Shown piece after piece: positions 3,340 to 27,624 of a DNA stretch of 27,624 nt. Position 1 is the first letter of the stretch. Each line of letters begins with the position of its first letter. This stretch comes from a virus. Position numbers and translations under genes: made by a program. The DNA lies in the IMG/VR virus record IMGVR_UViG_3300032285_002914, positions 1 through 27,624 of that record. The stretch is one strand, 5' to 3'. A model generated the notes under the pieces. That model was given only the letters and a program-made list of their open reading frames with translations, made no database searches and was not told where the DNA came from.

Positions 3340-3866
3340 ACAGCCTCATATATTTTATTTTTTATAAGATTTTCAAGATAAACAGACGAATGAACCACAC
3401 ACTCGGGGATTGTTTTTAAAGGTATCGCCATAAAACAGCTTTGCCCGTCCCTGTTCGGAATAATTGCAAATTTATTCAACAGTTCAGATTTTGTTTTGAT
3501 CAAAAGCCTAAAGCGCATCAGATCCACCAAAACCCACCAAAAAAAAGATGTGTTATCTGGATTCATGATCCCATAAAACATGTGGGAAGCGTTGCCCTCA
3601 CATATTTTTTTAAATTCAGTTGTAGGGGTTGTTGTTCTGCCAAAACGAATCGTTATTTCCCCCTTGTATTTTATTGCATCATTATTGCGCACTCTTACGG
3701 CAAGCTGGTTAATCCTAATAAATGGTATTAAATCTGTGGCTTTTTTTACGTCCTGTGAAAAAGAGGAATTTTGGAAGCATGCCAGTCCAAGAGTGCTTTT
3801 TACTAAAGACATTCTGGAATCAGCAGTCATGCGATCCGTGAAGTAAGATTGTATTGAAAGATTCAT
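3330..3866 (-). CDS. Hypothetical protein in an AT-rich island
   Basis: A 178-residue protein I do not recognise. The start at 3866 is preferred over the longer form at 3884 because its ATG overlaps the TGA of the methyltransferase gene (ATGA). The sequence mixes beta-rich stretches (ITIRFGRTT, FFWWVLVDL) with basic segments, and has no membrane segment or clear catalytic motif. Together with the methyltransferase gene it is clearly richer in A and T than the genes around it, which suggests that the pair arrived together. A link with DNA modification or anti-restriction is only an inference from position. Confidence 0.7.
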   Translation of the reverse strand: MNLSIQSYFTDRMTADSRMSLVKSTLGLACFQNSSFSQDVKKATDLIPFIRINQLAVRVRNNDAIKYKGEITIRFGRTTTPTTEFKKICEGNASHMFYGIMNPDNTSFFWWVLVDLMRFRLLIKTKSELLNKFAIIPNRDGQSCFMAIPLKTIPECVVHSSVYLENLIKNKIYEAVCP

Positions 3867-4843
3867 GCGGCTTGGTTGCCCCAAGTTTCAAAACCAGTAA
3901 TCTTTCTTCTATTGAACATATCCAATCTACGACCGGCGGTAACTCGTCGCACCATGTCGTAAAATTCTTCCGGCTTCTGACTGTGCGCACCACGAGGGGC
4001 CGAAAAGCACGTTGGAAAGGCTTTTGTGTCTATAAATTTTGGCGCACCTTTACGTGCATATAATGCAAATTCACAATTATACTGTGGTAGTCCTATTGGC
4101 TGAAAACCGCCTGGTTTGTGCCATACAAACGTACAGATATAATTGAAAGACCAAGCCTCTAAAACGCGAAAAGCCATAGTTAAAAATTTTTGCGTAGTCC
4201 ACATCCATAGATGGCAATCGTTGGCTGAGGGTATTTCGACTTTAAGTATTTCCTCCTCTGTCATAGTTGGGTAATCAAAATTTGTCTGATTAGGCCTTAC
4301 ATCGCGGGAAATCTTTTCCATGGGCCAAGGTGGATCTATTACAATGACATCATATTGCCCTAATAACTTCTTTGACTTTTTGTTTTTAATTGATTCAAGA
4401 TCTCTAATAATTTTTTCTTTTTTTACCTGCCTCAATGCTTCAGCCATTCCGATCACACCTTCCTTAACTTGCTCAAATTCGTTATCTGGCATTTCTTCAA
4501 GCCTTCTTATTGTGTGAGCTTGTTTTTTGCTTATGCCAAGATCTGCAAGTGAACTAGGCGGGTTCTCTTGGTACCCGCCTAGTTGAGAGGTTGCCTGGGT
4601 TCCTTTATTTTTTGGGGCATTTTTCCACAGTTTTCCGAGCCTACGCATCGCTTCTATTTTTATGCTATTTGCGTAACCAACGGCCTCGTCTCCGAGCTGT
4701 TGTCGTTTGGCGTATATTCTTGCAGCATCGGCCACATCCATAATTTTCTTAACTTCCTGCATTGATTTCGCCTCGACAAGTATTTGGCTTGCTTGGCTCA
4801 ACCTATCTATAACGGCGTCTTTTCTTACAATTTGTTGTAACAT
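3863..4843 (-). CDS. MT-A70 family adenine-N6 DNA methyltransferase
   Basis: This enzyme is expected to transfer a methyl group from S-adenosylmethionine to N6 of adenine. The catalytic motif DPPW is at residues 170-173, in the hydrophobic strand VIVIDPPW, and the rest of the MT-A70 pattern follows (LWMWTT at 212-217, WHKP at 241-244, SQKPEEFYDMV at 288-298). Residues 1-150 are helical with an HTH-like segment (about 96-120, 'LADLGISKKQAHTI') that could bind DNA or a partner. The start at 4843 is chosen for AAGGA six bases upstream; a longer form from 4891 lacks this. The gene is AT-rich compared with its neighbours. No cognate endonuclease sits beside it, so it is probably an orphan methylase for protection or regulation. 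The recognition site is unknown. Confidence 0.92.
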   Translation of the reverse strand: MLQQIVRKDAVIDRLSQASQILVEAKSMQEVKKIMDVADAARIYAKRQQLGDEAVGYANSIKIEAMRRLGKLWKNAPKNKGTQATSQLGGYQENPPSSLADLGISKKQAHTIRRLEEMPDNEFEQVKEGVIGMAEALRQVKKEKIIRDLESIKNKKSKKLLGQYDVIVIDPPWPMEKISRDVRPNQTNFDYPTMTEEEILKVEIPSANDCHLWMWTTQKFLTMAFRVLEAWSFNYICTFVWHKPGGFQPIGLPQYNCEFALYARKGAPKFIDTKAFPTCFSAPRGAHSQKPEEFYDMVRRVTAGRRLDMFNRRKITGFETWGNQAA

Positions 4844-4869
4844 TTTATTCCTTTTTGTTTGTTGTTTGA

Positions 4870-4998
4870 CTACCACTGCCCCATTCCCCACCGCATTCGG
4901 TTATTCCGGGCGATGATGACCTGCTGGGCGTACTGCGCAGGCGTGTAGGTGCCAATGACGCGGGCGGAGAACATAAAAAGCAGATCCCGCAACGTCAC
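4870..4998 (-). CDS. Small hypothetical protein, 42 aa
   Basis: A GTG at 4998 overlaps the TGA of the upstream HTH gene (GTGA) and opens 42 codons. The product has a hydrophobic N-terminus (LRDLLFMF) and a basic, Trp-containing C-terminus (NNRMRWGMGQW). An internal ATG at codon 9 is an alternative start. The overlap and the absence of another gene in the gap support it; nothing indicates function. Confidence 0.5.
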   Translation of the reverse strand: MTLRDLLFMFSARVIGTYTPAQYAQQVIIARNNRMRWGMGQW

Positions 4999-7992: not shown

Positions 7993-8327
7993 TTTTTGCC
8001 TTTCGTTGCTAGTTTCATGGATTGAATCGTCGTTTTGATTGCTTCCTGCGTGAGACACTTCGTCGTGAACCTCCACACCCGCCAGCCTAGGTCGGCTGCT
8101 GCCCGGTACTTTTCGCAGTCCTTAACCATTCCCATCCCACGGCCGTGGCGGCCCCCGAACGGCAGGAACGCACCGCCGTCCAGCTCGACGGCACAGCGGG
8201 CGTCTGAATTTGCGATCACGTAGTCAAACCTCCACTTACGTGTCGGGTGAAATTTATATTCTGCTGTGAGCTCCGGCCCACCGGCTGCTTTCCAAAGCAG
8301 GATGAATTTGCTGGCCAGTGCGCTCAT
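7989..8327 (-). CDS. Small Vsr/DUF559-like PD-(D/E)XK endonuclease
   Basis: Translated from ATG 8327, which overlaps the upstream stop (ATGA), the protein has 112 residues. It contains 'KWRFDYVI' with D35 and 'CAVELDGG' with E48 and D50, followed by 'CEKYRAAADLGWRVWRF' (71-87). This is the core of the very-short-patch-repair/DUF559 type of nuclease. A His-rich glycine loop (FGGRHGRGMGM) sits between the strands, as in phage members of this group. Likely roles are junction or mismatch cleavage, or recombination. A longer ORF extends to 8543 in the same frame but overlaps two other genes. Confidence 0.78.
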   Translation of the reverse strand: MSALASKFILLWKAAGGPELTAEYKFHPTRKWRFDYVIANSDARCAVELDGGAFLPFGGRHGRGMGMVKDCEKYRAAADLGWRVWRFTTKCLTQEAIKTTIQSMKLATKGKK

Positions 8328-8518
8328 TTCGCCTGCCCCTTTTTGCCCATCATCGACGCCACTACTTCGGTAAGGCGTGCCACGTCGGCCTCTAGGCGTT
8401 TCGTCCGGCTTTGCAGGTCGATCAGGGCAGTCGCCGACGACCACTCCGCCATCCCTACCGACTTGGACGGCACCACGGCCCCCAGCACGCCCTCGGCTTC
8501 CAAATCCCGGACGCTCAC
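8324..8518 (-). CDS. Small coiled-coil protein, 64 aa
   Basis: The GTG start at 8518 overlaps the TGA of the upstream membrane gene. Residues about 30-55 have a heptad pattern (LQSRTKRLEADVARLTEVV) and the C-terminus is basic. No function is visible; it lies between a membrane protein and a nuclease in one transcript. Confidence 0.6.
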   Translation of the reverse strand: MSVRDLEAEGVLGAVVPSKSVGMAEWSSATALIDLQSRTKRLEADVARLTEVVASMMGKKGQAK

Positions 8519-8667
8519 AGAATCTCCTTGCGAACGAAGTCAATAATCCAGAAGATCACGGCGATTGCTATGGTCAGGCCACCGATTCCGCAGCCCACAA
8601 ACAAGCCCCAGCCCACGATCAGCCCGGAAAGCTGGGCCAAATCTTTCATCAGCTCCCAAGAGATCAC
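8515..8667 (-). CDS. Small membrane protein with glycine-rich helix, 50 aa
   Basis: GTG 8667 has AGGGGAG five bases upstream and begins a 50-residue protein with one or two hydrophobic segments (LSGLIVGWGLFVGCGIGG and TIAIAVIFWIIDFV), then a basic end. Glycine spacing in the first helix favours helix packing. It could be a holin-like or superinfection protein, but it is not next to the endolysin. Confidence 0.62.
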   Translation of the reverse strand: MISWELMKDLAQLSGLIVGWGLFVGCGIGGLTIAIAVIFWIIDFVRKEIL

Positions 8668-8927
8668 TGTTCTCCCCTTACTTGGCGATGCCATGCCAGC
8701 CGGACGGCGGGATCCGGGTGCCAAACGTGCGCGTCTGGGCCTAGATTATATCCGCCCCGTTTATTAAAGTTAACTTGTTGGTAATGACGCTTCGAAAGCT
8801 CAGGTATTACTTCCGATTCTGTAACTCTTTGTAAGTCTTTATAGTGATAAGACTCGGACGGGGTGGGATTTGAACCCACGGTTCTATTTCTTTCTTCGTT
8901 TTGATTTATTATGCTAGGGAAGTTCAT
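8664..8927 (-). CDS. Doubtful ORF reading out of the attachment site
   Basis: The frame is open from ATG 8927 to TGA 8664 and its stop overlaps the GTG of the next gene (GTGA), the coupling seen elsewhere. The C-terminal half (GPDAHVWHPDPAVRLAWHRQ) looks protein-like, but the N-terminal half is a translation of the tRNA-derived attachment site. No other ATG exists in frame; GTG at 8879 is possible. After integration the upstream part would change. Treat as uncertain. Confidence 0.3.
   Translation of the reverse strand: MNFPSIINQNEERNRTVGSNPTPSESYHYKDLQRVTESEVIPELSKRHYQQVNFNKRGGYNLGPDAHVWHPDPAVRLAWHRQVRGEQ
8821..8840. repeat. Tandem 10-bp repeat beside the attachment core
   Basis: GTAACTCTTT (8821-8830) is followed at once by GTAAGTCTTT (8831-8840), differing at one base. 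It lies 15 bp from the tRNA-derived core, which is the place where arm-type integrase or excisionase sites occur. Binding has not been shown. Confidence 0.5.
8855..8890 (-). other. attP core: 3' end of a tRNA gene (probably tRNA-Ser)
   Basis: Read on the minus strand, the segment holds a complete T arm (GTGGG, loop TTCAAAT, CCCAC) followed by CCCGTCC and G, which is an acceptor strand with discriminator base G. There is no matching GGACGGG acceptor 5' strand, D arm or anticodon upstream, so this is only the 3' end of a tRNA gene, the kind of segment phages carry to restore the host gene on integration. The G discriminator and the sequence next to the T arm favour a class II tRNA such as tRNA-Ser. 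The integrase gene starts about 80 bp away. Confidence 0.8.
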
Positions 8928-8971
8928 TGTATGTTATTGCTTCAAACTCAGTAAATGTTACCGTTGTGACC

Positions 8972-10069
8972 ATGGCCTTTTCTTACGTTAAACGAGGCTC
9001 CCCGTGGTACTTCATTCGCTACAAAAACGAAGACGGAAAATGGCGCAGTAAGGCCACCCGCTATCGCATAGACAATACCCTGCACCGGGCCAAGGCAGTC
9101 GCAGAAGCAGCCCGACTTGGCGTTCATGAAAACACGGCGAAATGCGGCCACGACTGGGTCAACGATTTGATCCAGAATCATCCTGTTTCCCCTCTCACAA
9201 AAGTTTATTACCTGAATTCGTGGAAACATCTTGAGCGATTTATTTATGAGAAAAAAATAAGTCTGCAAGCATTTTCCGCTAATGACTGCGAAATTTATTT
9301 GAAATGGCGGCAAAACCTCCCCCGCACGTCCGGCGGACAGGCCGGCCGGAACCAGGCGTGCCAAGATTTGAAGATACTTAAATGGATTCATAGGCAGGGT
9401 CGCCTGCTTGGAAAGATGGACTCCGTTGCTTTGCTTGATTACAGAATTAAACGCGGCCCGATTGCCAGAGTTAAACCCCCCTTTTCGGATAATGAGATTA
9501 AAATCGTACGGAAAGCGCTGTCCGTCGAAGGAATCCCGGAGTGGATGAACGTTTCCTTTGAGATTGCTCTGGCCACTGGCTGCCGTCTCCGTGAAACGCA
9601 GATCCCGCTTTCTTGCGTCGATCTCAAAAATCGCATCCTGACATTCCCCTGCCCCAAGGGCGGAGCCGGAAAGTCGTTTAGCATTCCAATCCCGGCCGCC
9701 ATCGAATCCATGCTGAAGGACATGAAAGCGGAAGGCCGTGAGCTTACCTGTGAAGTTCCCCGCACGCGGGCATCGCTGTGCTGGCGTCGCCTGTTGGATA
9801 TTTGCGGCCTTAAATGTCATTGTTTTCACTCTTTGCGGGTAACCCGAGTGACGCGACTGCGTCTCGCAGGCTGCTCTCAATCAGTCGCCATGCGACTCGT
9901 GAATCACTCCTCGACGTTAGTTCACGAGCTTTATCAGCGACACTGCGTGGAGGATTTGCGGGACGCTGTGAACGTAGGCCAGCCTGCTCCTTCCGCCATT
10001 GATCAAAATCGCTCGGAATTACCTTTCCCGCGATTAGGGGAAATCCATGCATTCCCCGCAGTTGTTTGA
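8972..10069 (+). CDS. int: Tyrosine recombinase integrase
   Basis: The only large plus-strand gene. Residues about 1-60 form an arm-binding/N-terminal region, about 60-160 a SAM-like core-binding domain, and about 165-330 the catalytic domain. From ATG 8972 (365 residues) the catalytic residues are R205 in TGCRLRE, H286 and R289 in HSLR, H312 in VNHSS and the nucleophile Y321 in LYQRH; a lysine lies in CPKGGAGK. These form the full set for a phage integrase. A longer form from TTG 8927 is possible; neither has a good ribosome site. The gene points away from the attachment core. Its 3' 260 bp overlap the minus-strand excisionase-like gene. Confidence 0.95.
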   Translation: MAFSYVKRGSPWYFIRYKNEDGKWRSKATRYRIDNTLHRAKAVAEAARLGVHENTAKCGHDWVNDLIQNHPVSPLTKVYYLNSWKHLERFIYEKKISLQAFSANDCEIYLKWRQNLPRTSGGQAGRNQACQDLKILKWIHRQGRLLGKMDSVALLDYRIKRGPIARVKPPFSDNEIKIVRKALSVEGIPEWMNVSFEIALATGCRLRETQIPLSCVDLKNRILTFPCPKGGAGKSFSIPIPAAIESMLKDMKAEGRELTCEVPRTRASLCWRRLLDICGLKCHCFHSLRVTRVTRLRLAGCSQSVAMRLVNHSSTLVHELYQRHCVEDLRDAVNVGQPAPSAIDQNRSELPFPRLGEIHAFPAVV

Positions 10070-18007: not shown

Positions 18008-19498
18008 TTAGCTTACCAGTGGCGCAGACGTCAGCTTCGCCAGAGCGTCTTGCAGGGTTTTGTTGATGTCGTCTAAGGTTGTCTTTCCCTCGGCTTCTTT
18101 CTTTGCCTGCGTTTGGATGTACTCGGAACGGCGTTCAGACATGGAACGCTGCGCTGTTCCAATCCCAAACGATCCGACCTTTGTGGCGGACGTGTTTGCT
18201 AGGACTTCTTTGTCGAGTTGGCCCTGCGTGATTTTCTTCTGTTCCTCGGCTGCTTTCGCACGGGCCTTTTCAACTTCGGCTGCCACGCTGCCGCCCAGTC
18301 CGGCCGCTATGTCGAGGCGTTGCCCAGCAGCTTGGCCTGTTGCCTGCTGGCCTTGCCGTGCTCTGTCTGGTGCACCTGCGAGCCACTCGTTGTATTTTTG
18401 CTGATACTTTGCGGCTTCTTCGTTTTGTTTAATTTTTTCGTTCACCGCCTCTCGTTCGCTTTCAAAAATGTACTTCCGTCGACTTTCTTCGCTGTCCGCG
18501 GCCATCTTTTTCTCGTCTTCTTCTTCTTTCAGCGCTCGCATGGCTTCGTCAGTACGTTCTTTAATGGCGTCTTTTTCTGCTTTTTCGGTTTCCTTGGCGG
18601 CTTTTATTTTTGCAGCTTTGCCAGTTGCGCCAGCACCGCCTTCAAGATCCATAGGTTTGGCGGCTGCTTTGGGTTGATCGCCCTTATTAAATTCAGCCTT
18701 ACTTTTCTTCATTTCGTCGCTGATTGCCTTAGCTCCTGCAAGATTACCTGTCAGCGCTTCCCCTACCATCGCCATGGCCATCGTGACCTGTTCGGCCATG
18801 AATTTAAATCCCTTGATGGCGGGGTTGATGAATTGCGCTACCGATCCGAAAACGATTGTCATCGTATTCTGGAAAGTTTTGATTTCGTCGGAAGCTGCGC
18901 CAAGTTGTGCGATCGTATCATCCGACCAGACGCCCATGTCTTGACCCATTTTCTGAATGGCATCCGGGCCCATTCTGAGCGTTTCCATGAGAGCTCCGAC
19001 GCTTTTGCCGGCCACTTCCTGCGCCTGGGCGAACGCTTCCAGCGGGTCGTTTGCACCAGCCACTGCCTCGCTGAGCTTGAAAAATAGATCCTGAGGCGAC
19101 ATGCCTTGCAGATCGGAAACGGTCAAACCTAGTTTTTCAAACGATGCGATCATGGCGTCATCGCCGCCGATCGCCTTTCCTGCATTTACGGCCAGCTTGT
19201 TCATGGCGCTGGCCACGTCTTCAATGCCTGCCCCGGACAGCGATGCGGCGTTCCCGACTTCCTGTAGGGCGGAAGCTGAAATCCCGAAACGATTGGCCAA
19301 ATCTTGAAGCTGGTCGCCCTTGTCGATTGCCGATGAAAGGCCGCTCAAAATCTTATCGAATGCAAAAGCGCCGGTCAGGATTCCAGCCGTTTGCTTGGCA
19401 AACTTGTTGACGGCGTTCTCCGCCTCTTTCAACCCGTTCTCAAACGAGCTTTTTTCCAGTGCGAGCTTGGCTGTTGCGACGGCGTCCATTTTAGGCAA
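18008..19498 (-). CDS. Tail tape-measure protein
   Basis: The 496-residue protein has an N-terminal helical region (about 1-50), a Gly/Ala/Ile-rich region with 'GIEDVASAMNKLAVNAGKA' (91-109) typical of tape-measure proteins, a hydrophobic segment at about 215-250 and a long charged, Lys/Glu/Ala-rich coiled coil (about 255-490). At about 1.5 angstroms per residue, a tail of some 70-75 nm would be expected; this is a rule of thumb. The frameshifted chaperone gene lies one gene upstream, as is usual in lambda-like tail modules. Confidence 0.88.
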   Translation of the reverse strand: MPKMDAVATAKLALEKSSFENGLKEAENAVNKFAKQTAGILTGAFAFDKILSGLSSAIDKGDQLQDLANRFGISASALQEVGNAASLSGAGIEDVASAMNKLAVNAGKAIGGDDAMIASFEKLGLTVSDLQGMSPQDLFFKLSEAVAGANDPLEAFAQAQEVAGKSVGALMETLRMGPDAIQKMGQDMGVWSDDTIAQLGAASDEIKTFQNTMTIVFGSVAQFINPAIKGFKFMAEQVTMAMAMVGEALTGNLAGAKAISDEMKKSKAEFNKGDQPKAAAKPMDLEGGAGATGKAAKIKAAKETEKAEKDAIKERTDEAMRALKEEEDEKKMAADSEESRRKYIFESEREAVNEKIKQNEEAAKYQQKYNEWLAGAPDRARQGQQATGQAAGQRLDIAAGLGGSVAAEVEKARAKAAEEQKKITQGQLDKEVLANTSATKVGSFGIGTAQRSMSERRSEYIQTQAKKEAEGKTTLDDINKTLQDALAKLTSAPLVS

Positions 19499-21601: not shown

Positions 21602-22048
21602 TCAACTCGCTGTCGAGTTTGGATAGGCGATCACTGACAGCTTGAAATTGCGTTTTATGCTTATTTCCTCGTTGTCGGCCTCTGCCTCGCTGCTTTCAAG
21701 TTTTGCGTTGTAGCAGCGGGCCGCACCGATCGCTGTGGTGGCGTTAAGTCTGGCCGTCAGGCTGGTCGTGTCGTAGAACGCCTGAAGGATTTTTGAGCAT
21801 TTTTGCGTGTGCGCCTCGAGTGTTGTGTCGTCATAGCGCTGTTCCAGAATGATTTCGACCGGGACGCTGAACACGCCCGATCCCTGCACGGGTTCTTCGG
21901 TTCCCATCGTCGCCTTGATGACGATCGATGGCGGCTTGTTTTCGGTCAGATCGTGCGACAGGTGGTAACTCTGCCCGGTGACGGTGGAGGAAAGTAGTTC
22001 CTGAAAAGCGCCTTCAATTAGGCGATCGAGCATGGTCACGGCGGGCAT
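21602..22048 (-). CDS. Tail terminator / head-tail completion-like protein
   Basis: The 148-residue protein opens with a helix (LDRLIEGAFQELL) and continues as strands and helices (SVPVEIILEQRYDD, AHTQKCSKILQAFY, ISIKRNFKLSVIAYP). This is the layout of small tail-terminator/neck proteins of siphophages. It directly precedes the tube candidate. The metabolic cassette lies between it and the neck protein at 26732-27031. Confidence 0.58.
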   Translation of the reverse strand: MPAVTMLDRLIEGAFQELLSSTVTGQSYHLSHDLTENKPPSIVIKATMGTEEPVQGSGVFSVPVEIILEQRYDDTTLEAHTQKCSKILQAFYDTTSLTARLNATTAIGAARCYNAKLESSEAEADNEEISIKRNFKLSVIAYPNSTAS

Positions 22049-22065: not shown

Positions 22066-22680
22066 TCACCAGATCGGGCGAATTGATGGATCAAAAGTGA
22101 CCATCGTTTTGCACCCAGCTCCGCCGTGGGGGAACGTTGGCGTGTAGGAATAGCGCCGGACGCAATCCGGCCAAGTCATTGTCGCTTTTCCCCTGGCTGC
22201 TTTGGAAGTATCAACCGACCGATCGTTGTCCTCGATGATAAAGGTGCAAGGCAGGCCGGAGCCGGCGACATAGTTCACGGCTTCATAAAAGTGCCCTTCA
22301 TCCTCTGCCCCGTCGCCTAGAAAGCACCATACCTTTGATGCGCTGCCCTGTTCTTTGAGCGTGTGCGCGACTCCGGCAGCTATCCCGCACGTCCCGGCCA
22401 GAACGCTGGAAGTGTAAAAATTTAATTTACGGTCAAAGACGAACATGGATCTGCCATCTTTGATCATCTGTTCCAGTGCGTCGGGATCCCCGCCGGCCAA
22501 AAGGTAGTGATAATGGGATCGATGGGTTGAAAAGATCCAATCTCCCGGGCGAATTTCCTTATAGATTTCAATCAGTTGATCTTCGTTTCCACCGCAAAGG
22601 TGGATCAGATAGGGCAGTTTCCCCTGCTCAAAAAGGGCTTTGATCCGCAGCTCAAAATCGATCAGGTCTTGTTTATTCAT
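22066..22680 (-). CDS. E1-alpha-like thiamine-diphosphate (PP) subunit
   Basis: The 204-residue protein matches the dehydrogenase E1 alpha pattern: STHRSHYHYLLAGGDPDAL (51-69), SMFVFDRKLNFY (78-89), then the diphosphate-binding motif GDG (122-124) to N152 in EDND, spanning EAVNYVAGSGLP. It should bind the diphosphate and Mg of thiamine diphosphate. Two things are unusual: it is about two-thirds of the normal 320-370 residues, and in the regulatory/catalytic loop the conserved His of SMH is Phe79 here, with GHG missing in the next segment. It ends the five-gene cassette; the PYR partner is separated from it by the radical SAM gene, with 4-7 bp overlaps. The intact frame argues against a pseudogene. 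Confidence 0.82.
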   Translation of the reverse strand: MNKQDLIDFELRIKALFEQGKLPYLIHLCGGNEDQLIEIYKEIRPGDWIFSTHRSHYHYLLAGGDPDALEQMIKDGRSMFVFDRKLNFYTSSVLAGTCGIAAGVAHTLKEQGSASKVWCFLGDGAEDEGHFYEAVNYVAGSGLPCTFIIEDNDRSVDTSKAARGKATMTWPDCVRRYSYTPTFPHGGAGCKTMVTFDPSIRPIW

Positions 22681-23771
22681 ACAAAGGCGTCATGGCTGTC
22701 GGTTGTCAGTTTTTCAAACAGCGCAACCTTCGCGTGATTGGCGCATTCATGCAGGCAGCTCACGCCGGGATTGAAGTTCTTGTGCCATGCCTTCGCCTCA
22801 TCGCCGAACCATGCCTGACTGAATGTTTGATTCTTCATTGATGCGATCCGGCCGTGATTTGCGTATGCCGTATTATGGCAGGCGTAAATATCCAGATCGG
22901 CGCCGACCACGCAAACGGCCTGAGCATATAGGCAACGATGAAACGGCCGGAGCGGCGACTTGCTTGGATTATCCAGATCGTAAGTCGTATTGATCGTGAA
23001 GTCCTCGTCACAGAATGACTGACATTCCGCAAGCTGTTCACGCACCCTGGTCGCAATCGTGCCGTGATATTCCTTGAAGTTCTGAACATAGACCGGTGAA
23101 AATCGGACGTTGCTGACTCCGCATTCCTTTAACTCTTTTGCGAATGGAACGAGCCCTTCGTAATTATAACGGGTGATAATGAAATTGATTCCAAGATCGC
23201 AGCTTTCAGTCTTCGTGTTTGAAAAGTTTTTTATGTTTTCCATGACCGAATCAAACGATCGATCCGGCACGTTTCGGCTGGCGGCCATTTGTTCGGCGCT
23301 GGTGTAGTCCATGGAAATCCTGACCCACTTGGCGTTGCTCAATACTTCCGCCCGCTCGCCGGTGAGAAGCTGGCCGTTGGTGATGATAGAAAGATCCAAC
23401 CCGGATGAAACGGTCTTCGTCATGATTTGAACAATGTCCCTATGCAGTAGCGGTTCGCCGCCGCCGCTGAACGTCACGGCCTTTGTGCCTATGCTGGAAA
23501 GATCCTCGATCAATTCCATCGCCTTGGCCGTAGGCATGACGTCCCGTTCGTTCATGCTGGTGTGCATTCCTGCTTGCAGGTGTAGATCCGGGCGATCCTT
23601 AGGCCGTGTTGTGCCGTCAGAATAAACGCAAAAACGGCACGCATGATTGCAGATATTTGTCGGCTTGATCCGCACGTAGATCGGGGCCGTGATAATATCG
23701 CCACGGAAGCTGGCGATCTTATCGGGAAACGAAAAGATTTTAAGGTCGCTGTATTTGTTTTGCTTCACCAA
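22677..23771 (-). CDS. Radical SAM protein with cysteine-rich SPASM-type end
   Basis: The 364-residue protein has the 4Fe-4S site CNHACRFC (C41, C45, C48), the SAM-binding GGGEP (103-107), and strands of a partial TIM barrel (LSIITNGQLL at 127-136; GINFIIT 194-200). The C-terminus has C280, C287, C298, C339 and C343, fitting a SPASM/twitch domain for extra iron-sulfur clusters. Such enzymes modify peptides, sugars or cofactors by radical chemistry. The gene lies between the two halves of the thiamine enzyme and overlaps both, so its product probably acts in the same pathway. The substrate cannot be told from the sequence. Confidence 0.9.
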   Translation of the reverse strand: MVKQNKYSDLKIFSFPDKIASFRGDIITAPIYVRIKPTNICNHACRFCVYSDGTTRPKDRPDLHLQAGMHTSMNERDVMPTAKAMELIEDLSSIGTKAVTFSGGGEPLLHRDIVQIMTKTVSSGLDLSIITNGQLLTGERAEVLSNAKWVRISMDYTSAEQMAASRNVPDRSFDSVMENIKNFSNTKTESCDLGINFIITRYNYEGLVPFAKELKECGVSNVRFSPVYVQNFKEYHGTIATRVREQLAECQSFCDEDFTINTTYDLDNPSKSPLRPFHRCLYAQAVCVVGADLDIYACHNTAYANHGRIASMKNQTFSQAWFGDEAKAWHKNFNPGVSCLHECANHAKVALFEKLTTDSHDAFV

Positions 23772-24286
23772 TCGTCCTTTCGTTCGACAAGCATGGTCGA
23801 TCGGCCCCAGCTCAGCCCTTCAAGCGCGAATTTATATTCACCCGCCACATGCGAAGAGTGTGAAAGATCGATGACCGGAAAGTCCACCATGCCCCTGATC
23901 GCTTGGGTGAAGTCCTGCGTATGGGTTGGCCCTGTGAAAAGTGCCTTCTTTTTATTTCCGATGACCACCCTGATGATGGCGGCCGGATAGAATTGCCCGC
24001 AGCTTATCCTGGCCGCAGCGCCTAGATGGTTCACGATTGCGTCCAAGGCGTTTAGAATGAAATCCATTCTTTCGATAAAAACGACGGGTTTTAGTCCTGC
24101 CAGACTTAGGCCGGTCGCCATTCCAACCATAAGATTTTCAGCCACAGGCGTCTCGATCAGTTGAGAATCTGGAATGCGGTTCAGTGTGCCGGCGGCCCGA
24201 CCGCCCACTTTTACGCCGTATCCAATGAACCGGACGGCCGGATCCCAAGCCAAAGTTTCCATGGCTTTCGTCAGCTCAGCTTTCAA
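23765..24286 (-). CDS. E1-beta/transketolase pyrimidine (PYR) domain subunit
   Basis: The 173-residue protein corresponds to the pyrimidine-binding half of E1 beta: 'IETPVAENLMVGMATGLSLA' (44-63), with the catalytic Glu at E50 that activates thiamine diphosphate, and FIERMDFILNALDAIVNH (70-87), then the GPTHTQ segment (119-124) and FPVID. The C-terminal transketolase domain present in usual 320-residue E1 beta proteins is missing. With the PP subunit it would make a minimal PP/PYR enzyme, in general like two-subunit sulfopyruvate decarboxylases, though it is closer to E1 by sequence. It overlaps its neighbours by four and seven bases. Confidence 0.8.
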   Translation of the reverse strand: MKAELTKAMETLAWDPAVRFIGYGVKVGGRAAGTLNRIPDSQLIETPVAENLMVGMATGLSLAGLKPVVFIERMDFILNALDAIVNHLGAAARISCGQFYPAAIIRVVIGNKKKALFTGPTHTQDFTQAIRGMVDFPVIDLSHSSHVAGEYKFALEGLSWGRSTMLVERKDDW

Positions 24287-25047
24287 AGCAGACCCACTTC
24301 TTCCAAAATATGAATGGCGTGGAATGCGCTTCTGGCCATCTGTCCGCGTTCAGTAAGGATCACGTTTTCGGTATCAGCGCAAAGCAGGTGGAAGGCGTCT
24401 TTATTGTGAACGTTCAGGCAGGGCCAGCTCGGCCCGGTGGATGTTCCAATGATCGCTTTCGCCTTGGCGGCCGTGGCTCCGATCCAAGTGACGTTTTTAT
24501 TTTCAAAAGCAGGACAGATCTCGGTCGGCGCCGTTGTGATTACCCGATGACCTTTTGCGACAAGTTTTGAAATTAAAACCGTGAAGTCATCTTTGTTGAA
24601 GTTTGTGAATTGATTCGACAATCCTAGCGAATTGATGACGACGACGTCAAAGTCTTCGGTCATAGGAATGAACGATTCGAGCGCCCAATAATCAAACAAG
24701 AGATCTTCCGTTTTGCGTATTGGATTTTTGACGGCCATCCGGCTGGCCAGTTTTTCAAACCAGCACAAGTGAAACTTTGCAAAATCCAATCTGTCGGGGT
24801 GGCCGTACCAGTAGCCGTCGGATCCCCGCCAGGAGTCGATGCTCTCTTTGGGAGCTTGGTCAATCGTCTTTAGAAATAGCCTGCGTGAAATATCAGACCG
24901 GAGTGCGTCGATTTCCTCGAATCTGCAAAGGTCAGGACTGTAATAGTGCGTGATCTCTAGTTCAGGATTTTGCAGGCATAGGCGGCGCAAAAAGTTCAAC
25001 TGCACCAAATTGTCGCCGAGTCTTAACGCATTGTGCGTGTGGATCAC
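24283..25047 (-). CDS. GT9/heptosyltransferase-like GT-B protein
   Basis: The 254-residue protein begins 'LRLGDNLVQLNFLRRL' (8-23), similar to the GDxL start of heptosyltransferases, and ends with 'IIGTSTGPSWPCLN' (204-217), like the donor-binding segment D-S-G-P/H in GT9 enzymes. Between them are alternating strands and helices. It is shorter than usual (about 320-350), mostly in the N-terminal half. It probably transfers or binds a nucleotide sugar. Its start overlaps the double-glycosyltransferase gene by four bases. Confidence 0.72.
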   Translation of the reverse strand: MIHTHNALRLGDNLVQLNFLRRLCLQNPELEITHYYSPDLCRFEEIDALRSDISRRLFLKTIDQAPKESIDSWRGSDGYWYGHPDRLDFAKFHLCWFEKLASRMAVKNPIRKTEDLLFDYWALESFIPMTEDFDVVVINSLGLSNQFTNFNKDDFTVLISKLVAKGHRVITTAPTEICPAFENKNVTWIGATAAKAKAIIGTSTGPSWPCLNVHNKDAFHLLCADTENVILTERGQMARSAFHAIHILEEVGLL

Positions 25048-26729
25048 GGATTGCGTTCCTTAAAAATCTTTTCTCCCAGCGTGTAGTTTTCTTTGGCGTT
25101 GTGCTTTTTGAATTCTTCGTCCTGCGGTGCACCGGTGAAGAATGGGTTGTTATGTTTGAAGACGACGTCTTTTGCGTCCACGATCACGCCGTCAAATTTT
25201 GCCCTGTGGCTGAATTCGTTGTCGGAAAAGATTCCCGAGCATTGATCGTATTCAGCCGCAAACATGGCGCCCTGATCCTCTAGTCTCGCCCGGGTCATAA
25301 TCGCCATACACAGCAGCTCGTCCTGGCGGTGGCCGTCGCTGATCGCCAAAACCTTCGGCTTACTGGTATCGCCAAGCCTATCGATCAGAATCTGATCCCA
25401 GTGCAGCGGCGGATCCCAATCGTCGGAGCCCTGCACGATGATTTCGCCTTGCGCGACGGCGGCCGCCCTGTTCCAAGCGGCGATGCAGCTCCCCTTGCCC
25501 ATGACCGGCCCCCACGGTTTTAACGTCTTCGCCTTTTCGTCATCGTCGTCGCAGGAAAAGATCCACTCGACGGCCGCCGGATCGGCCGCCTTTTTCATCC
25601 ATAGGATCCGGGCGTTGATGGCTTCCTGCGGTCGCCCACGGGTGGCGTGACAGATTGAGATTTTGACCGGACGAATTTTTCGCCAGCTCGCCCATACGCG
25701 ATCGGCCTCGTCGTTGTCGCCTACGGCACGGCACGCCGCGATGTACAGATCGATGCATTCAAAGTCATAGACCGTGCGCTGGGCGTTCCAGACCGTGACG
25801 CCGGGATCAGATTGAACCATCGCCGACTTGAGATAATGGTACGCCGACGACCAACGGCCGACGGACGCTTCTTCTCGGGCCAGATAGTAAAGAGATTCCC
25901 GGCGGCTGGGATTCATGTGGTGAGCTTTGTGATAAAGCTCGATCCGCTTTTCACGGTCAGGCGTGGCGCTCGCCAAATTGTTCATCGCCTCATAGGCCAG
26001 CGTCGGCTCTTGATCCGGCCAGTGGGCGGCAGCGTTTGACCAGGTGATCGATTCCGTGCGGTTGTTGGATAGGAAAAGTTCCTGCTGGTAGTAGTACGCA
26101 TACTTGCCGGCCTCGCTGAGTTGCGCTTTTAGAATGCGTAGATTCCGATCAGCGCTTCCTTGCTTGTATCCACCGGGGTGATGTTCAACCCAGACGGCCT
26201 GCTCGCCGACTGAAGTGAATCCCGGAAGCGGTAATAGCGCCTCGTGCACGGCGTAGTTCCACCGGCCCGTCCATCCGTTGTCGGTTTTCTTCACCATCCG
26301 TTCCCGTACTGGGGTCAGCTTGGCGTTTAAAACCGCATAAACTCCGGCATAGATGCCGACCTTTGGATCAGATTCAAACGCCGCTACGGCCCGTTTAAAC
26401 GCGTTTTTTAGGTCTTTATGGGGCAGGTCATCGCAGTCGATCCACACGGCATAATCCCCGGAGCAGGCGTCCAGTGCTTTGTTGCGGGCGGCTGCAAAGT
26501 TATCGATGTGCGGCCAATCGGCGCCTGCCGGTGCGTTGTGATATTCCGTGATGACGGCCCCGGCCTTTTCAGCGATCGCCCGGGTGCCGTCGTCCGGCCG
26601 GGATCCCTGCGCCATGCACACGACCATTTCATCGCAGAACGGTTTGAATGCGGTCAGACAGCGTTCCATGAATTGCGCCTCGTGCCCGGCGATCATGTAA
26701 ATTGAAATTTTAGGATTTCGGGTGGCCAC
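25044..26729 (-). CDS. Two-domain family 2 glycosyltransferase with TPR-like middle
   Basis: The 561-residue protein contains two glycosyltransferase folds. Domain 1 (about 6-190) starts ISIYMIAGHEAQFMERCL and has the metal/donor site WIDCDD (96-101). Residues about 195-350 are helical repeats resembling TPRs, with 'AYEAMNNLASATPDREKRIE' in this part. Domain 2 (about 355-555) starts ISICHATRGRPQEAINARI, with CDDDDE (393-398) and GSDDWDPP (434-441). The protein would transfer two sugars or act processively on one target. It is the first gene of the cassette, immediately after the neck gene (two bases apart), and is the largest of the five. Confidence 0.86.
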   Translation of the reverse strand: MATRNPKISIYMIAGHEAQFMERCLTAFKPFCDEMVVCMAQGSRPDDGTRAIAEKAGAVITEYHNAPAGADWPHIDNFAAARNKALDACSGDYAVWIDCDDLPHKDLKNAFKRAVAAFESDPKVGIYAGVYAVLNAKLTPVRERMVKKTDNGWTGRWNYAVHEALLPLPGFTSVGEQAVWVEHHPGGYKQGSADRNLRILKAQLSEAGKYAYYYQQELFLSNNRTESITWSNAAAHWPDQEPTLAYEAMNNLASATPDREKRIELYHKAHHMNPSRRESLYYLAREEASVGRWSSAYHYLKSAMVQSDPGVTVWNAQRTVYDFECIDLYIAACRAVGDNDEADRVWASWRKIRPVKISICHATRGRPQEAINARILWMKKAADPAAVEWIFSCDDDDEKAKTLKPWGPVMGKGSCIAAWNRAAAVAQGEIIVQGSDDWDPPLHWDQILIDRLGDTSKPKVLAISDGHRQDELLCMAIMTRARLEDQGAMFAAEYDQCSGIFSDNEFSHRAKFDGVIVDAKDVVFKHNNPFFTGAPQDEEFKKHNAKENYTLGEKIFKERNP

Positions 26730-26731
26730 GT

Positions 26732-27031
26732 TTAAACCTCTCGAAGTCCCAGCACGTAGCTGCCGATCGACGTATCCAAAGACGCCACCCGATAGCTGAC
26801 CGAATTAGCCAAAAGAATCGAACCGATCTCCGGAGCTGCTGAAATGGCGGTGACGTCGATGGTGAACGTTGAATTCAGATCCAAATCGTAACCGCCCAGC
26901 GCAACGTTCTCATTTCGTGAGATTGTAGACAGGATCCCGGTGACGCTTGTGGATCCGATGGTGGCGGCGGTTCCGATCTGAATGTAAAGAGCCGCCAGAC
27001 TCTCTTTCAGGCATTCAGTGAATTCAGACAT
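26732..27031 (-). CDS. Neck / head-tail joining protein
   Basis: The 99-residue protein has a helical N-terminus (FTECLKESLAALY) and a beta-rich rest, ending 'SVSYRVASLDTSIGSYVLGL' (77-96), a pattern of small neck/joining proteins that close the head and bind the tail. It follows the major capsid gene, with the terminator-like hairpin between. The role is inferred from position and layout. Confidence 0.65.
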   Translation of the reverse strand: MSEFTECLKESLAALYIQIGTAATIGSTSVTGILSTISRNENVALGGYDLDLNSTFTIDVTAISAAPEIGSILLANSVSYRVASLDTSIGSYVLGLREV

Positions 27032-27094: not shown

Positions 27095-27624
27095 TTAGCT
27101 TCCGTTGATACGCACGAGGCTGTTGGTCTCGCCGGCTTTCACGCCGTAGATCAAGGCATAGGTGCGTTGCAGCTGGCCGGTGAACACCGAATATGCCTCA
27201 CGCACTTGGATCGAAAGTCCGGTGCGGGGTTCCGTCACCACGCTGATGTCTCCGGGGATCGGGACGCCAGTGGGGATTTCGGGAACGCGGGCTGCGATCA
27301 AGAGCGCTTCACGCTGGGCGAAGAATCCGCCGAGGGTGATGCTGTTGGAAGGCACCGCGCTGTACATGTTGATGTTAAACCCGGCAACGGATCCGATTCC
27401 GGCCGTGCGGGCCTGTTCACCGGAGATCTGAGCGTTCGCCACGATGGTCGAATCATTCAAGAGACGGCCATAGAACGAAGGGGCGAGAACCGCGTACCGA
27501 TCGTGCTGGGGAACGTTTGCGTTGTTGAGGGTGATTCCAGCCGACACCACGGAGGCGTAGCTGAAGGTTGCCGAGCTCTGCGTGAGCGCGGAGGTGAAGC
27601 TGCTGGAAGTGACGAGCGCGAGCA
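27095..27624 (-). CDS. Major capsid protein, C-terminal part (cut by window edge)
   Basis: The frame is open through the right edge and ends at 27095; 176 codons are present. It contains 'QHDRYAVLAPSFYGRLLND' (from about residue 40 of the visible part), then 'GSVAGFNINMYSAVPSN' and the C-terminal 'AYSVFTGQLQRTYALIYGVKAG'. These fit the A/P domain end of HK97-fold coat proteins of the P22-like type. GTG/ATG codons inside the visible part are not starts. The hairpin following the gene and its place before the neck gene agree with a coat gene. Confidence 0.82.
   Translation of the reverse strand, partial: LALVTSSSFTSALTQSSATFSYASVVSAGITLNNANVPQHDRYAVLAPSFYGRLLNDSTIVANAQISGEQARTAGIGSVAGFNINMYSAVPSNSITLGGFFAQREALLIAARVPEIPTGVPIPGDISVVTEPRTGLSIQVREAYSVFTGQLQRTYALIYGVKAGETNSLVRINGS

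Follow-up and report, generated by a model that had tools for sequence, protein, structure and literature searches.

The 27,624-nucleotide virus record IMGVR_UViG_3300032285_002914 of IMG/VR (positions 1 to 27,624; hereafter the window), from a freshwater phage, encodes, within a module of head and tail genes, a five-gene cassette (positions 22,066 to 26,729) that combines glycosyltransferases (GTs), a split thiamine diphosphate (ThDP) enzyme and a radical S-adenosylmethionine (SAM) protein. In relatives of the cassette the radical SAM protein is exchanged for a Zn-dependent alcohol dehydrogenase (Zn-ADH), and the ThDP enzyme is exchanged for one of transketolase type. These partner swaps point to what each cassette gene may do, and the comparative sequence evidence lifts what had been a guess in an earlier sequence-only reading to a specific, testable module. 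A minimal ThDP enzyme paired with an exchangeable oxidase is found repeatedly in small freshwater phages, in cyanophages and in very large phages, strongly selected and in many cases located within the virion gene module. To our knowledge, phages rarely carry enzymes that build new sugar carbon skeletons.

The interpretation that we put forward, to which we give slightly better than even chances, is that of a two-slot glycan-tailoring cassette that would oxidise a sugar, join carbon to it by ThDP chemistry and attach the product via GTs, more likely to the virion. In the first slot, a twitch-type radical SAM protein would convert a sugar, either still bound to a nucleotide or after its transfer, into a ketosugar by two-electron oxidation of a hydroxyl; the Zn/NAD alcohol dehydrogenase would fill this slot in relatives. 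In the second slot, the ThDP enzyme would add a short piece to the ketone, either a ketol or an acetyl group derived from pyruvate, forming a carbon-branched or chain-altered sugar, a role that a transketolase-type split ThDP enzyme would fill in relatives. The double GT2 and the GT9-like protein may then attach or extend the sugar on a target, with virion proteins more likely than the host surface. If this chemistry is correct, the cassette would constitute a phage-encoded branched-sugar pathway and a natural experiment in which a radical SAM enzyme and a Zn dehydrogenase apparently fill one step. It would also provide a function for phrog_34187 and for part of the cyanophage lipopolysaccharide (LPS) clusters, the role of which has been open since 2010 (PMC3037559).

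Cassette integrity and the ThDP enzyme

All five open reading frames (ORFs) of the cassette were found on the minus strand (Table 1), in the order GT2, GT9-like, PYR (pyrimidine-binding ThDP subunit), radical SAM and PP (diphosphate-binding ThDP subunit). The junctions overlap by 4, 4, 7 and 4 bp, which implies translational coupling and reproduces in position and order the chain described in the sequence-only reading. The GT2 gene has a GTG start 2 bp past the upstream structural gene. Relatives of the radical SAM protein start with MKQNKY, and the true start in the window is probably GTG 23768, which would cut the 7-bp overlap to 4 bp. Dozens of IMG/VR contigs (60-100% identity) have an identical gene order with the same genes on either side. 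This excludes a contig mis-join, a concern raised with the earlier reading, and the genome-neighbourhood check suggested there likewise rules out scattered, unlinked homologues: those in the loci collected are linked, in an order that many contigs share.

Ratios of nonsynonymous to synonymous polymorphism (pN/pS) between the window and its relatives are 0.02-0.22 for PP and 0.05-0.30 for the radical SAM gene, with values down to 0.02-0.08 for both between close relatives. Cassette values are generally equal to or below those of the flanking head and tail structural genes, and PP is 94% identical in locus L006 despite saturated synonymous divergence. All five are genuine, complete genes, translationally coupled and subject to strong purifying selection.

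PP and PYR match the Pfam domains E1_dh (E 4.4e-17) and Transket_pyr (E 2.2e-6), respectively, and also the two halves of a single PHROG family, phrog_34187. In other phages, including the cyanophages S-SM2 and P-TIM68, they are fused as one chain. The GD of the PP motif GDG..N is conserved in 163/163 distinct sequences, and G124 and N152 in 162/163 each; catalytic Glu50 and His122 (of GxTH) of PYR are both conserved in 167/167. The natural fusion was modelled as a single chain, with the structure-prediction alignment restricted to IMG/VR loci. In the predicted model (predicted local distance difference test score, pLDDT, 88), the PYR half superimposes on the E1-beta subunit of pyruvate dehydrogenase (Z 22.4, 1.8 Å over 170 residues) and the fused model on transketolase (Z ~20, 3.2 Å over 350 residues). 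The fusion in other phages, the invariant or nearly invariant cofactor and catalytic residues and the alignment of the model to transketolase show that PP and PYR act as one minimal E1-type ThDP enzyme. This agrees with the sequence-only reading, which had assigned PYR to the E1-beta type by Glu50 and PP to the E1-alpha type by GDG..N and had proposed that they form one enzyme; the domains are matched and the cofactor sites are present. A TKC domain is absent after PYR, which at 173 aa stops near residue 170 of the ~325-aa E1-beta models and structures. No E2 or E3 (lipoyl carrier) partners were found among the subset of window proteins that was scanned.

Exchange of the oxidoreductase and of the ThDP enzyme

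Relatives were gathered with PP, PYR, fused and radical SAM queries, and all loci were then profile-searched. The 284 loci with PP and PYR form 86 clusters at 90% identity. Within 3 kb of PP and PYR, a radical SAM protein is encoded in 33 of the 86 clusters and a Zn-ADH in 53; both occur together in 0/86 and neither in 0/86, where exclusivity refers to the window-type radical SAM family and not to any radical SAM protein. One viral scan was queried with the radical SAM protein, which enriches such loci and cannot produce the absence of clusters with both or neither. The operon slots correspond (GT9-PYR-radical SAM-PP versus GT9-PYR-ADH-PP), and the choice of partner is independent of fusion, given nine split clusters with ADH and two fused clusters with radical SAM. 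There are about five partner changes on the PP+PYR tree, three of them forced by well-supported branches. The Zn-ADH proteins have ADH_zinc_N and ADH_N domains, with catalytic Cys39, His62 and Glu63 and the glycine-motif residues invariant in 15 aligned sequences.

More distant radical SAM proteins (120-160 bits) are carried by 3 of the 33 radical SAM clusters (L087, L088 and L091, all genome records). These loci, assigned to Deltaproteobacteria/Desulfobacterales and a nanoarchaeon, encode split PP and PYR, two to three distinct radical SAM proteins, GT2 and a PMT-type transferase; they may represent glycan clusters of cells, or else phage contigs that ended up in cellular bins. A different, shorter radical SAM protein (262 aa) lies near the ThDP genes of the ADH-type locus L077, with a relative in the radical SAM-type L056; these second, distinct proteins of ~250 aa are encoded at L077:4437-5225 and L056:6262-7002. 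A PYR-radical SAM-PP trio is also present in a 735-kb phage genome record (L085, LR756501) and, with its genes in identical order, in an IMG/VR contig of 108 kb (L063).

The radical SAM protein of the window matches Pfam Radical_SAM (E 1.3e-19). It had been labelled a SPASM-type radical SAM protein from the sequence alone; 'radical SAM' stands and 'SPASM-type' does not: the Pfam SPASM match fell below the cut-off (E 0.09), and the seven cysteines and two auxiliary clusters of a full SPASM domain were not found. Across the family, the cysteines of CxxxCxxC are conserved in 85/87 (C41), 86/87 (C45) and 87/87 (C48) sequences, and the four tail cysteines (280, 298, 339 and 343) in 87/87 each. By this pattern the tail is twitch-like, with one predicted auxiliary cluster held by four Cys ligands. 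Profile matches in the PDB include BlsE, MoaA and DesII; the match to SuiB, which cyclises peptides, is weaker than those to BlsE and MoaA. BtrN is not among the matches at E<=0.001. The predicted structure (pLDDT 79) is closest in fold to SkfB (Z 23.8), DesII (Z 23.8) and BlsE (Z 22.1), and further matches are MoaA (~Z 20) and BtrN (Z 15.4). DesII, a TDP-sugar radical SAM deaminase/dehydrogenase, can dehydrogenate TDP-D-quinovose (PMC11434129), and BtrN of the butirosin pathway oxidises an aminocyclitol alcohol to a ketone with an auxiliary cluster that has four Cys ligands, compared with three in MoaA (PMC9012708).

Alcohol dehydrogenation is the activity common to the unrelated radical SAM and Zn-ADH classes, and thus the radical SAM protein probably oxidises a hydroxyl. 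The interchange argues for a sugar-alcohol dehydrogenase over a generic SPASM maturase and, together with the fold, suggests that the window protein performs a two-electron alcohol oxidation. It is very improbable that the protein is a peptide or cofactor maturase with incidental ThDP linkage, or that the genes are genome filler. The peptide maturase SkfB does tie with DesII in the fold comparison, the best sub-threshold NCBIfam model is a cofactor maturase, and cyanophage LPS genes were once considered possible stuffer DNA (PMC3037559). However, an alcohol dehydrogenase takes the place of the radical SAM protein in 53/86 clusters, and the pN/pS of PP and radical SAM genes between close relatives is low; a precursor peptide was not noticed in the tightly packed operons, for which no systematic search was made.

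The ThDP slot is also subject to exchange. In four close relatives, L216, L220, L221 and L224, the GT2, GT9-like and radical SAM genes are kept at the same site (the radical SAM protein is 89-91% identical to that of the window), and PP and PYR are replaced by a 213-aa Transketolase_N-like protein (4e-12) and a 151-aa Transket_pyr protein (1.6e-22). A methyltransferase is also present in these cassettes. Window-family radical SAM proteins with a transketolase-type pair occur in L339 (230 kb), L340 (120 kb) and L341 as well, and the ThDP type changes four to five times on the radical SAM tree. Thus, this radical SAM family stays with some ThDP enzyme as the type of that enzyme changes. The transketolase-type pairs of L342 and L343 have neither a radical SAM nor an ADH partner. 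A constant ketosugar acceptor and a variable donor would be the simplest reading of this swap. A broader proposal, which we offer tentatively, is that unrelated phages share a mix-and-match module in which the oxidase (radical SAM or Zn-ADH) and the ThDP enzyme (E1 or transketolase type) are exchanged independently, building varied branched virion sugars and a serotype-like variation of the coat. Such variation, if real, would alter recognition by hosts, grazers or other antagonists.

The pairing of an oxidoreductase with a ThDP enzyme would also fit if the latter cleaved its substrate. The radical SAM or ADH enzyme would then make an alpha-hydroxyketone (ketose) that is cleaved or shortened, in the manner of acetoin dehydrogenase E1 or inositol-catabolic ThDP hydrolases. 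Both E1-type and transketolase-type enzymes handle alpha-hydroxyketones, and the Zn-ADH is weakly similar to models of scyllo-inosose 3-dehydrogenase and galactitol-1-phosphate dehydrogenase. We consider cleavage unlikely, as the constant glycosyltransferase and frequent methyltransferase association suggests glycan building and downstream catabolic genes were not seen.

The GT2 protein has two GT domains, as first proposed: Glycos_transf_2 (E 1.5e-11, residues 9-136; phrog_13126, 6-345) and a second matched by the glycosyltransferase family phrog_14945 (354-551). For the GT9-like protein, the LGD..FL motif is conserved, but the Glyco_transf_9 profile was not matched. No Pfam or NCBIfam match was obtained for it and no Pfam match for its L251 counterpart, the best PDB profile match is a weak one to a GT9 structure (3tov, E 0.049), and profile-profile comparison (hhalign) with archaeal GT9 was uninformative. 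This protein is found alongside either type of ThDP enzyme and either type of oxidoreductase.

Genomic setting and target

In S-SM2 and P-TIM68 the fusion is part of a sugar cluster of heptose/LPS type and adjoins genes for Zn-ADH, a sugar kinase, a nucleotidyltransferase, a phosphoheptose isomerase (GmhA-like) and an epimerase. A short-chain dehydrogenase is present in about half of the fused/ADH clusters and may reduce the keto branch, as proposed for paulomycin (PMC4425429). Methyltransferases are frequent in cassette loci, and the cellular homologues have GTs and a PMT-type mannosyltransferase as neighbours. The recurrent GT partners, the cyanophage sugar clusters and the radical SAM/Zn-ADH interchange support a sugar-modifying role. 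The sequence-only reading, in which an unusual sugar is made and attached, is to that extent supported, whereas its virion role is only favoured.

The structural setting of the cassette is secure, with a P22-like head protein upstream and a tape measure protein (18008-19498) downstream. The flanking genes had been named as neck and tail-completion genes; the setting is confirmed but the two names are not. In 19/40 clusters the split form is no more than 5 kb away from major capsid protein (three families), TerL/portal or baseplate genes; it is near RecT/RusA genes in 8/40 and elsewhere in 13/40. Recurrence with three major-head-protein families agrees with the earlier step from structural placement to virion role, whereas the versions linked to RecT/RusA or in sugar clusters do not, and a strictly virion-only placement is not supported.

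The virion is modestly favoured over the host surface as target because cassette expression is tied to the head-tail operon. That the same chemistry acts on LPS, O-antigen or capsule, for receptor remodelling, superinfection exclusion or lysogenic conversion, is plausible and somewhat less probable. It would suit a phage group with a tyrosine integrase, the fused homologues in LPS-like cyanophage clusters (PMC3037559), the cellular homologues beside mannosyltransferases and GTs, and the pectate-lyase-like beta-helix protein directly after the radical SAM gene in L251. Genes inside a head-tail operon, however, should not be expressed in a lysogen and should be switched on late in the lytic cycle. 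Their structural placement recurs with three head-protein families, and a membrane flippase or polymerase was not noticed among the cassette genes. DNA as target, with GTs glycosylating modified bases and the radical SAM and ThDP enzymes tailoring the sugar, is in our view quite improbable. DNA hypermodification by GTs of viruses is known (cited in PMC12619734) and eight split clusters lie by RecT/RusA, but the majority of loci belong to structural modules or sugar clusters, and neither the cassette nor the family-matched genes include one for base hydroxylation or for the synthesis of modified nucleotides.

Several points weigh against the two-slot, virion-directed reading. The cassette includes no nucleotide-sugar synthesis gene and no obvious keto-branch reductase, PYR is without the TKC domain present in full-length E1-beta and transketolase, and a peptide maturase ties for the closest fold of the radical SAM protein. 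The swap logic is correlative: the radical SAM and ADH enzymes might have different substrates that feed the same enzyme, and few lineages support one of the swap directions. Eight of the split clusters have RecT/RusA genes nearby, most fused clusters are outside structural modules, and the integrase of the window phage keeps host-surface conversion plausible.

Table 1. Cassette genes and other features of the window
Feature	Position	Strand	Evidence
Major head protein (P22-like), cut at window edge	27095..27622	-	phrog_283 E 6.6e-15, phrog_267
Putative head-tail attachment/neck protein	26732..27031	-	weak match, Phage_attach E 0.01
Double GT-A (GT2) glycosyltransferase, TPR-like middle part, 561 aa	25044..26729	-	Glycos_transf_2, phrog_13126, phrog_14945
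GT9/heptosyltransferase-like protein, 254 aa	24283..25047	-	LGDxL..FLR motif; no family match
PYR (pyrimidine-binding) ThDP subunit, E1-beta type, no TKC, 173 aa	23765..24286	-	Transket_pyr; Glu50, GxTH (His122)
Twitch-type radical SAM protein	22677..23771	-	CxxxCxxC (41/45/48), GGGEP, tail Cys 280/298/339/343
PP (diphosphate-binding) ThDP subunit, E1-alpha type, 204 aa	22066..22680	-	E1_dh; GDG..N
Downstream structural-module gene, tail-completion-like by position	21602..22048	-	no family match; conserved neighbour in relatives
Tyrosine integrase-like gene	8927..10069	+	strand opposite to main operons

In the transketolase-type locus L251, the gene of the pectate-lyase/beta-helix protein (8092-9282), which resembles a tail spike or depolymerase, shares 4 bp with the end of the radical SAM gene; the protein is also present in L341. 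In the Manatee Spring podoviruses L086 (MW202801, 7998-12661) and L344 (MW202524, 3147-7307), radical SAM-GT-PhyH-methyltransferase-NodB-GT or multi-GT sets directly follow the major capsid gene. Sugar cassettes seem to be placed repeatedly at this position behind the head gene.

Given the tyrosine integrase-like gene, the window phage is probably temperate. This gene is kept in 10 of 15 related contigs examined (52-84% identity). In the 34,143-base record behind L009 it is split over both ends, which suggests a circular or permuted, near-complete temperate phage genome of ~34 kb. In the records behind L216 and L224 (G014 and G015) the integrase match has shrunk to 66-67 residues, with stop codons in that frame; the ThDP swap in these records coincides with apparent integrase loss. 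The window also encodes an MT-A70-type adenine methyltransferase (3863-4891, minus strand). The G+C content there is low (~40% versus 50-58% elsewhere), and the gene is possibly a recent acquisition. A GANTC scan for a methylation signature found nothing of interest.

Comparison with known systems

LPS clusters of S-SM2 and further cyanophages were noted by Sullivan et al. (2010), who did not decide between a functional role and stuffer DNA (PMC3037559). The S-SM2 and P-TIM68 members of phrog_34187, annotated as 'transketolase central region-containing protein', are orthologous PP-PYR proteins (51-54% identity in PP) in fused form. They differ in having a Zn-ADH partner (plus a short-chain dehydrogenase in P-TIM68) within large sugar-nucleotide clusters, rather than a radical SAM partner in a structural operon. 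Literature searches found no paper on the whole set, but the statement in the sequence-only reading that no such phage system had been described is partly wrong, as the fused homologue of the ThDP enzyme is already annotated in isolated cyanophages. Virion glycosylation is known from mycobacteriophage capsid and tail-tube glycans (Freeman et al. 2023, cited in PMC12619734). Phage-encoded GTs are common to both cases, with the GT genes linked to structural genes here; ThDP or radical SAM sugar-building enzymes are not mentioned in the relevant part of PMC12619734, and the virion, which is the target there, is only a probable one here.

The nearest solved relatives of the transketolase-type pair of L216 are the split transketolase of Carboxydothermus hydrogenoformans (6yak/6yaj) and DXS, from which the phage pair differs in being shorter, without TKC and linked to radical SAM and GT genes. 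DesII and BlsE are among the closest folds to the phage radical SAM protein and give significant profile matches, but identity is ~15-20%, the operon is different and no amino sugar genes lie by the phage gene. BtrN has four tail Cys and a single auxiliary cluster, as predicted for the phage protein, yet shows no detectable profile-level sequence relationship to it, and its Z score is below those of DesII and BlsE. The GenE-type dehydrogenases of other 2-deoxystreptamine pathways are Zn-dependent. The step of BtrN is the conversion of an alcohol to a ketone (PMC9012708), and in those other pathways the same step is done by this non-radical SAM, GenE-type dehydrogenase (PMC12689558).

The closest parallel in chemistry may be found in antibiotic clusters of Actinobacteria. 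AviB1/AviB2 (avilamycin) and Pau11/Pau12 (paulomycin) are E1-alpha/beta-like proteins assigned to the formation of two-carbon branches on 4-ketosugars (PMC4425429), and the E1-like pair EvdU5/EvdS3 (everninomicin) is proposed to have the same role (PMC10338323). Like the phage enzyme, each is a two-subunit E1-type ThDP pair clustered with glycosyltransferases and sugar-tailoring enzymes. Unlike the phage subunits of 204 and 173 aa, which lack TKC, Pau11 (325 aa) and Pau12 (345 aa) are full-length, and in the antibiotic clusters the ketone comes from an NDP-sugar dehydratase or decarboxylase and not from a dedicated radical SAM or ADH enzyme. The phage cassette is thus set apart by its minimal subunits, by a dedicated radical SAM or ADH enzyme, by the exchangeability of both enzymes and by its location in a structural operon. 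By analogy, the cassette may work through sugar branching of the AviB1/AviB2 type.

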